Assembly (NCBI GenBank): GCA_018064525.1 | Contig: JAGHVB010000033.1 | Coordinates: 1-64,000 of the forward strand | Source: Candidatus Treponema merdequi | GTDB lineage: Bacteria; Spirochaetota; Spirochaetia; Treponematales; Treponemataceae | DNA: 64,000 nt | Direction: 5' to 3' | Shown here: one piece after another, positions 25,787 through 26,991 of the stretch | Numbering within the stretch: position 1 is the first letter of the stretch | How the letters are laid out: every line of letters begins with the position of its first letter | Notes under the pieces: model-generated | Database searches by the model: none | The model's input: the letters and a program-made list of their open reading frames with translations, nothing else | Told to the model about the DNA's origin: nothing | Program-made: the position numbers and the translations under genes

Positions 25787-25797
25787 AAAAAAAATAA

Positions 25798-25814
25798 CCT
25801 CTAAAAATTAGAGG
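25798..25814 (-). terminator. Terminator of the double-glycine peptide operon, in the antiporter leader
   Basis: On the minus strand a 7-bp stem CCTCTAA/TTAGAGG with a 3-base loop is followed by TTATTTTTTTT. It lies after the last small-protein gene and immediately before the antiporter start codon. Confidence 0.7.
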
Positions 25815-25816
25815 CT

Positions 25817-25845
25817 ATTTTATTACATTGTAAAAAACGGTGCAA
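25817..25845 (-). promoter_or_regulatory. Antiporter promoter
   Basis: Read on the minus strand: TTGCAC (25840-25845), a 17-base spacer and TAAAAT (25817-25822). The predicted start point falls inside the left arm of the hairpin at 25798-25814. Confidence 0.6.
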
Positions 25846-25867
25846 GATACTTTTACAGTTTTGCATT

Positions 25868-26206
25868 CTATTTTCCAAGACGTTTTCTGACTTCTGCATC
25901 AATTCCCTGGTCAATCTTATCAAGATCAATTCCCATAAGTTTAAGACATCTTGTTCTCAGATTGAAAGTTGCCATATCATTTGCGATATATGCATCCATT
26001 CTTTCCTGCATTAAAGACTGAATGTTCAATGCTTTTCTTGAAGGCATCTTTGGCGTAAACTTATCAACGTAATGAATAATAATATCAGCCAAAGTCTTTC
26101 CAATTTCTGCATACGCACCTGCAGGAAGTGCAAATCCGGCAGAAACTTTTTCAAGCATTTCATCATCAAGTTTTACAACTTCTGTCTGTTTAACTGCATT
26201 ACTCAT
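25868..26206 (-). CDS. Small protein with a double-glycine-type leader
   Basis: 112 residues. The first 24 end in LDDEMLEKVSAG, which follows the class II bacteriocin leader pattern (L at -12, L at -7, V at -4, Ala-Gly at -2/-1). The predicted mature part of 88 residues starts FALPAGAY and is helical and basic, with little likeness to its two neighbours. Family unknown; it could be another exported peptide or an immunity or accessory protein. The start at 26206 is fixed by AAGGAGG just upstream. It is the third gene of the operon and is followed by a terminator. Confidence 0.8.
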   Translation of the reverse strand: MSNAVKQTEVVKLDDEMLEKVSAGFALPAGAYAEIGKTLADIIIHYVDKFTPKMPSRKALNIQSLMQERMDAYIANDMATFNLRTRCLKLMGIDLDKIDQGIDAEVRKRLGK

Positions 26207-26219
26207 ATTCACACCTCCT

Positions 26220-26555
26220 TTATTCATTGCAATACTGCAAACAGTTTCTAGCAAGGCTTGTAACTCTTTCGCCGCTTGAAAGATTGATATATGTTACCAT
26301 TCTTTCTGTATATTTTATGAAAAGAAATCTGTGAGGTTCTTCCCATACTTTTTCTACCATAACTTTTGACCAGTGATTACTTGTATGTGCACACTCGAAA
26401 GTAAAATCATTTCTCCAGTAAACCTGTCCTACCTGTAATTTATACTGATTTACGAAACCTCCGCAGCTGTCTGGAACATAATTATAACGTCCCTCATTTT
26501 TTCCGCCTGATATTGTATCAAGTTCTTTTTCATTAAGAATCATTGCTGTATTCAT
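26220..26555 (-). CDS. Double-glycine leader protein (bacteriocin-like), paralogue 1
   Basis: 111 residues. An 18-residue leader ends in LNEKELDTISGG, a near-perfect match to the double-glycine leaders (LSxxELxxIxGG) cut by C39-peptidase ABC exporters. The mature part would have 93 residues with four Cys and many aromatic residues. It is a paralogue of the gene at 26570-26881: both share a GG-x-V-x-QY segment, VGQ/PGQ followed by YW/YY, a central W with alternating hydrophobic residues, and four Cys. AAGGAGG precedes the start. Activity unknown. Confidence 0.85.
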   Translation of the reverse strand: MNTAMILNEKELDTISGGKNEGRYNYVPDSCGGFVNQYKLQVGQVYWRNDFTFECAHTSNHWSKVMVEKVWEEPHRFLFIKYTERMVTYINLSSGERVTSLARNCLQYCNE

Positions 26556-26569
26556 AATCTGCCTCCTTA

Positions 26570-26881
26570 TTATCGCTTAATGCTGTAAATAAGATTTTTC
26601 TTATTTATTGGAGATGAACATGGCTGTCCAGTTCCACAAACAATATAATCAGCTGTACGAATCGTGCAGTGATGCCATAAAATCCAGCCGTTATCAGCTT
26701 CATAAACTCTTGTTATTTTGATTTTAATCCACTGATCATAACCGCCTGATGTATAATGCATGTAATATTCCTGTCCAGGCTTTACATCGTACTGACCTAC
26801 ACAACCGCCTACGTCAGAAGGCTTACCGCCTCCGCATATATTTTCAAGTTCAAATTCATTCAATAAAAGTGCTTCACTCAT
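26570..26881 (-). CDS. Double-glycine leader protein (bacteriocin-like), paralogue 2
   Basis: 103 residues. An 18-residue leader ends in LNEFELENICGG, with the same length and spacing as its downstream paralogue. The 85-residue mature part is rich in Gly, Tyr, Trp and Ile and has four Cys, so disulfides are possible after export. The start at 26881 is chosen for AAGGAGG 6 bases upstream. It is the first gene of a three-gene operon with its own promoter. No ABC exporter, C39 peptidase or modification enzyme is in the window, so the exporter must be elsewhere if it exists. Confidence 0.85.
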   Translation of the reverse strand: MSEALLLNEFELENICGGGKPSDVGGCVGQYDVKPGQEYYMHYTSGGYDQWIKIKITRVYEADNGWILWHHCTIRTADYIVCGTGQPCSSPINKKNLIYSIKR

Positions 26882-26919
26882 ATAAGCCTCCTTGCAGAAC
26901 ATCATCTGCCTTACACCTA

Positions 26920-26949
26920 TTTATACGAAAGAAGCAAAAAAAGAGACAA
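26920..26949 (-). promoter_or_regulatory. Promoter of the double-glycine peptide operon
   Basis: Read on the minus strand: TTGTCT (26944-26949), an 18-base spacer and TATAAA (26920-26925), about 40 bases before the first start codon. A TGGAATTTT motif lies 20 bases beyond the -35. Confidence 0.6.
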
Positions 26950-26991
26950 TTATTTTTTTAGATTTTAAATGGAATTTTCGAAAGCCGCAGT

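Follow-up and report, generated by a model that had tools for sequence, protein, structure and literature searches.

The operon of three small genes with double-glycine-type leaders carried by the window (the whole 64-kb stretch of DNA analysed) is probably, at roughly three chances in four as judged from the sequences, a transcription unit belonging to a dispersed regulon for peptide secretion that a single NHLM-type exporter serves. In the proposed mechanism, a special promoter would switch on about nine scattered units, which together encode about 14 precursors, and would most likely be read by the ECF sigma factor that heads the exporter operon; control by this particular sigma factor is fairly likely. 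The precursor leaders, ending in the motif [LI]-x3-E-L-x2-[IV]-x-GG, would be recognised by the C39 peptidase of the exporter and cut after GG (AG or AA in a minority), while homology suggests that the mature part would be pushed out by ABC1/ABC2, a HlyD-like adaptor and TolC. Export and cleavage by the NHLM-type system are, on sequence grounds, highly probable. Outside the cell, ORF1 and ORF2 would be small proteins of 85 and 93 residues, held by putative disulfide bonds and free of lanthionine, and ORF3 an 88-residue helical partner. The features concerned are the following.

26918..26949, minus strand: regulon promoter TTGTCTCTTTTT-N9-TCGTATAAATA, of ECF-like layout (TTGTCT, 16 bases, CGTAT), with a leave-one-out PSSM score of 31.1 bits.
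26570..26881, minus strand: ORF1, 103 aa; leader MSEALLLNEFELENICGG (26881-26828), mature part of 85 aa with 4 Cys; E 0.0015 with the held-out leader profile.
26220..26555, minus strand: ORF2, 111 aa, paralogue of ORF1; leader MNTAMILNEKELDTISGG (26555-26502), mature part of 93 aa with 4 Cys; E 0.003 with the same profile.
25868..26206, minus strand: ORF3, 112 aa, unrelated to ORF1 and ORF2; probable leader MSNAVKQTEVVKLDDEMLEKVSAG, mature part of 88 aa with 1 Cys.
25849..26950, no strand: segment of about 1.1 kb not found at the same junction in the sister genome G007; breakpoints placed to within some tens of bases.
25787..25846, minus strand: downstream antiporter gene, its promoter (TTGCAC..TAATAAAAT) and its leader hairpin, kept in G007.

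The original prediction had described three consecutive genes with double-glycine leaders, two of them of 18 residues, followed by mature parts of 93 and 85 residues with four Cys each. These ORFs are present, the recount gives the same lengths, and an (A)AAGGAGG ribosome site lies 5-8 bases 5' of each ATG, in agreement with the AAGGAGG announced ahead of every gene. The leaders measure 18 residues in ORF1 (ending ..LLNEFELENICGG), 18 in ORF2 (..ILNEKELDTISGG) and 24 in ORF3 (..LDDEMLEKVSAG). Those of ORF1 and ORF2 have hydrophobic residues at -12, -7 and -4 and an acidic residue at -8, as in the GG leader of class II bacteriocins and microcins; ORF3 has Met at -8 and ends in AG.

In single-protein scans all leader matches fell below threshold (TIGR01847, the lactococcin G models and Bacteriocin_IIc), with ORF1 and ORF3 under the family cut-offs; ORF2 reached 14.6 of 15.7 bits against the bacteriocin family model as a protein and passed that cut-off, with 16.4 bits, in the genome search, the model spanning the leader only. 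The leaders were therefore tested across the whole genome (2.70 Mb, 99.8% complete), one protein of which shares 70% identity with its match in an uncultured Treponema sp., making Treponema or a near relative the likely host. A profile built from nine leaders of other loci, the leaders of the window operon being left out, recovered those of ORF1 and ORF2 at the E values listed above, and both satisfy a strict leader pattern which, applied to small ORFs preceded by a ribosome site, gave no match in a further 1.48 Mb of this genome; the stretch scans with this pattern and with the promoter covered about 60% of the genome. TIGR01847 had five matches over its cut-off in this genome and at most one in each of the other 199 genus members, and among 14 control genomes only Lactococcus lactis gave any. 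As far as sequence can tell, the leaders of ORF1 and ORF2 are genuine C39-type leaders. The leader of ORF3 was recovered only if ORF3 itself was placed in the training set; with its AG end, Met at -8 and no Glu it is a probable leader, backed mainly by the operon context and by the AAG-ending leaders found at the NHLM loci of relatives.

The search for further genes with the same leader, which the original prediction had proposed, led to seven other loci: C51, C18, C2, C56 (two genes), C14 (two paralogues), C70 and C10 (three genes). Together with the window operon the set comprises about 14 genes at eight dispersed loci, in nine transcription units, with mature parts of 30-93 residues that are mostly unrelated to one another. 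At C10, two of the three precursors have 49-residue leaders ending in LDMVNAAG, and this leader type ('LFDFqkF...AAG') also occurs in precursors beside the NHLM clusters of relatives, which have much the same gene order as the cluster described below and in which precursors adjoin the exporter. Across 200 genus genomes, ABC1 of the NHLM system is present in 9 of the 13 leader-positive genomes and in 18 of the 187 leader-negative ones (Fisher p 2e-6; p 1e-5 with the genome under study removed); four leader-positive genomes have no NHLM ABC1 over the cut-off.

Some features of these precursor loci are recorded separately. A recurrent leader of 45-50 residues (LFDFqgF ... NAAG/AAG), in which no named leader family was recognised, is found in precursors beside NHLM exporters at L133 14565-14765, L131 8176-8427 and L132 3939-4145, and at L079 4765-3724, which corresponds to C10. 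At L131 8481-9813 and L132 2829-3876 precursors are arranged in tandem; their leaders have 42 residues (MELTGKLKEDVAKCETREEAK..VAGG), and their cores are short and variable, several of them with SEGRRRKF at the end. Just behind the two paralogous precursors of C14 (L078 5484-7280) is the gene of a 598-aa lipoprotein that reads like an S41-type protease.

An exporter had been reported missing from the window, with the advice to look for a C39-ABC transporter or a HlyD partner in the rest of the genome; exactly one C39 peptidase match was found, on another contig (C43), within a complete NHLM/NHLP-type operon whose order is ECF sigma factor, HlyD-like protein, C39-ABC, ABC, branched-chain-type binding protein and TolC. 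The C39-ABC protein scores 1003.6 bits against TIGR03796 (cut-off 853.3), the second ABC protein 787.9 bits against TIGR03797 (cut-off 709.4) and the HlyD-like protein 305.1 bits against TIGR03794 (cut-off 156.2), the NHLP/NHLM export cluster being defined by these three families (Haft et al. 2010, PMC2887384). No precursor adjoins the exporter in this genome. The C39 domain aligns with LahT150 (6mpz) at E 4e-49, with the catalytic Cys, His and Asp aligned and conserved. LahT150 reads leader positions -12, -8, -7 and -4 and tolerates very different cores, the residue requirements having been established for LahT150 and ComA (PMC6363468). The short leaders of the genome have L/I at -12, E/D at -8, L/I at -7, I/V at -4 and GG at -2/-1, with ORF3 as the sole exception. 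A branched-chain-amino-acid-type binding lipoprotein (L002 14038-15240 here) is constant in the genus NHLM operons inspected, which include L130, L131, L132 and L133; it may help to sense or capture what is exported.

In the sister genome G007, whose antiporter is 98% identical, the antiporter gene comes immediately after relA, with no operon between them. The 9.3-kb exporter operon is missing there as well, leuB and malQ being 53 bases apart; G007 gave no leader match and no TIGR03796 match at E 1e-100. The sister species thus has neither the operon nor the exporter, at clean empty sites, and the pattern reflects either gain in the present lineage or loss in the other. G+C content gave no sign of foreign origin (0.359 for the operon, 0.360 for the window). 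The same comparison disposes of the terminator that had been assigned to the operon: the hairpin at 25821-25791 sits downstream of the antiporter's own promoter, and since promoter and hairpin are both conserved in the operon-free G007, the hairpin belongs to the antiporter. This hairpin (minus strand) has a T-run, ends directly at the antiporter ATG and contains the likely ribosome site AGAGG; its conservation in G007 suggests that it may control translation or transcription of the antiporter.

The promoter proposed for the operon, TTGTCT, 18 bases and TATAAA, is right in letters and positions (26949-26944 and 26925-26920), while its reading as an ordinary sigma-70 promoter has been replaced by that of a longer regulon promoter. 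Alignment of the upstream regions revealed a near-identical motif, TTGTcCTTTTTT-N9-TCGTATAAATA, before eight of the nine transcription units, C56 having a weaker form; since it is shared so widely, the element appears to be a special promoter and not a housekeeping one. The distance from the end of the -35 element to the ATG is about 60-140 bases in the precursor units. With a PSSM made from the other loci, the next best site in the 64-kb window reaches 14.7 bits, and in 1.56 Mb of DNA of this genome outside the other leader loci the only sites above 24 bits are that of the window operon and one at L002:3082. The motif also stands ahead of leader genes in relatives that possess the exporter; among relatives, 114 kb of leader loci contain 15 sites of at least 20 bits, whereas no such site occurs in control loci (138.5 kb) or in reversed sequence (336 kb).

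In its layout (TTGTCT, 16 bases, CGTAT) the element resembles an ECF promoter more closely, although TTGTCT-18-TATAAA could also act as a sigma-70 promoter with an activator. In the relative G024, the motif, a 66-aa precursor with an AAG leader and the gene of an ECF sigma factor (49% identity to that heading the present exporter operon) are consecutive on one strand. The exporter operon itself does not carry the motif, so the link between sigma factor and motif is indirect. Across all GTDB contigs the promoter pattern has 52 matches, the majority scattered and probably due to chance; a few in treponemes precede proteins with Sec signals, and for this reason the motif alone is not proof of the regulon.

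Several further observations concern the promoter. The stretch L002 3082-3290 (plus strand), which precedes the exporter operon by about 4.7 kb, holds a 28.7-bit promoter copy and, after it, a ribosome site, an ORF of 4 codons and a terminator-like hairpin; it is either a precursor cassette, empty or decayed, or a small RNA. In other treponeme genomes (L151, L158, L189) the pattern lies ahead of small Sec-signal proteins, and this promoter class may therefore serve a different secreted set in some treponemes. A rumen Firmicute (Butyrivibrio MAG RUI559, L178, about 4038-3727, minus strand) has an exact copy of the pattern upstream of a gene for a 70-aa GG-leader peptide, by chance or by transfer. 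The sequence GAAAATTCCAT is found upstream of three cassettes (window 26979, minus strand; L031 3904; L079 4877), twice inside TGGAAAATTCCA; AAAATTCCAT, considered as an insertion target ahead of these three cassettes, was rejected, as GAAAATTCCAT occurs 33 times in 1.62 Mb.

The mature parts of ORF1 and ORF2 are paralogues, as had been stated, with 30-33% identity (blastp 1.4e-10; tblastn E 2e-5 over the whole genome). They had been assigned to no recognised family, and the profile searches that had been suggested matched none: homologues of the mature parts were found neither in Pfam, NCBIfam, PHROGs and PDB sequences, nor in 118-200 genus genomes, 394 genomes of the order, GTDB genome contigs and viral contigs, nor in plasmids (searched with the mature part of ORF2) or phages (searched with that of ORF3). 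The structure model of ORF2 is beta-rich (pLDDT 63) and had no PDB match below E 0.8; ORF3 is predicted to be helical, at low confidence (pLDDT 48). The suggestion of a secreted bacteriocin- or signal-like system with a promoter and terminator of its own is supported as regards secretion, by the leaders and the C39 exporter, loses its terminator and has its promoter reassigned. As to the extracellular role, interbacterial antagonism is placed first, as a tentative choice; a role other than antagonism or signalling is placed second and is conceivable, and signalling comes third, as a rather unlikely one.

Among other explanations, the one that best withstands these data is a classical bacteriocin operon, in which ORF1 and ORF2 would form a two-peptide bacteriocin or a class II microcin (GG leader, 7-10 kDa, disulfides) and ORF3 would be an immunity or accessory protein. 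It is a possible but not the favoured account. In size, 18-aa leader, Cys content and pairing of paralogues, ORF1 and ORF2 are similar to class II microcins and two-peptide bacteriocins, and the sub-threshold similarity of the leader to TIGR01847, the lactococcin G models and Bacteriocin_IIc points the same way; however, ORF3 begins with a leader-like sequence of its own and shows no obvious membrane segment, ORF1 and ORF2 have hydrophilic cores (GRAVY -0.54 and -0.66), and inspection of the ORFs beside the operon and beside the other precursor loci inspected recognised no immunity gene or immunity-like partner. Moreover, GG-leader proteins of T. denticola were found in the culture supernatant with no bactericidal activity detected (PMC11879956). 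The term bacteriocin is thus unproven for these products, neither an immunity gene, nor a modification enzyme, nor a known family having been found.

A doubtful alternative is that the precursors are secreted signals, pheromones or contact signals sensed by the producer or by its neighbours, with the ECF sigma factor in a feedback loop. ComC-type pheromones use GG leaders, many precursors are under tight common regulation, and the ECF sigma gene lies beside the exporter or, in G024, directly behind a motif-driven precursor; nevertheless, 85-93 aa and four Cys make large cores for pheromones, a single receptor would hardly suit about 14 cores that are mostly unrelated, and no receptor or histidine kinase was seen beside the precursors. 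It is improbable that the products are RiPP precursors of NHLP/Nif11-like type, modified by enzymes before export. The exporter family was indeed defined with modified NHLP/Nif11 precursors (PMC2887384), the cores contain Cys, and long AAG-ending leaders occur at C10 and in relatives; yet the LANC_like domain (PF05147) has no match in the genome, and no modification enzyme was noted among the ORFs adjoining the precursors or within the exporter operon. Finally, that ORF1-3 are small proteins of the ordinary cytoplasmic kind, with N-termini that fit the pattern by chance, as the single-protein scores of ORF1 and ORF3 could suggest, is very improbable against the held-out profile matches, the empty pattern scan, the common promoter, the co-occurrence with the exporter and the joint absence in G007.

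The reading as a dispersed regulon with one NHLM-type exporter, if true, would give spirochaetes, in which small secreted proteins are poorly known, a further export route and a defined regulon. Promoter and leader together would point to each cargo gene wherever it is located, which makes prediction simple. With about 14 mostly unrelated cores to be accepted by a single peptidase, the system would be a natural test of cargo tolerance in leader-guided exporters; since cargo and exporter are jointly absent from the sister species, the gain or loss of such a system can be traced. A more speculative proposal, held to be unlikely as it stands, is a spirochaete-specific layout in which many unrelated small secreted proteins would move, as compact promoter-plus-gene cassettes, into different intergenic sites, united only by the ECF-type promoter and the export tag; their gain or loss would go along with that of one exporter-plus-sigma operon, so as to form a modular, expandable secretome served in trans.

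Among known systems, class II microcins such as microcin V belong to Gram-negative bacteria and combine a short GG leader with an unmodified core of 80-90 aa exported by ABC/HlyD/TolC. In the present case there is no adjacent immunity gene, the exporter is unlinked, and Pfam and NCBIfam scans found no sequence relation to them. The NHLM/NHLP systems (proteusin, Nif11; PMC2887384) share with it the exporter trio over all three cut-offs, multiple dispersed GG precursors and C39-cut leaders, here predicted; in contrast, the leaders are here generally of 16-30 aa, ORF1-3 have no NCBIfam match to the NHLP (TIGR03793) or Nif11 (TIGR03798) leader domain, there is no LanC-type enzyme, the cores reach 93 aa, and the operon includes an ECF sigma factor, a binding protein and TolC, with a promoter common to the precursors. 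For Spirochaetes, no NHLP/Nif11 cluster was among those listed in a 2014 survey of anaerobes (PMC4289311).

GG-leader proteins and C39 exporters were already known in treponemes from T. denticola (PMC4947327, PMC11879956), whose bacteriocin-type signal domain proteins likewise have GG at residues 17-18 and adjoin a C39-ABC/HlyD pair. These proteins (TDE_0416/0422/0424) differ in being of 167-614 aa and clustered with lipoproteins next to the exporter (PMC11879956); no NHLM trio or common promoter is reported for them. The nearest solved C39 domain is that of LahT from the lah cluster of Lachnospiraceae C6A11 (PMC6363468), which also resembles the present system in the use of one peptidase for very different cores and in the leader positions read, but has clustered lanthipeptide precursors, Nif11 leaders and a Gram-positive host. 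In comparison with all of these, what is new is an NHLM exporter in the genus, with short-leader unmodified cargo and a dispersed regulon under one promoter.
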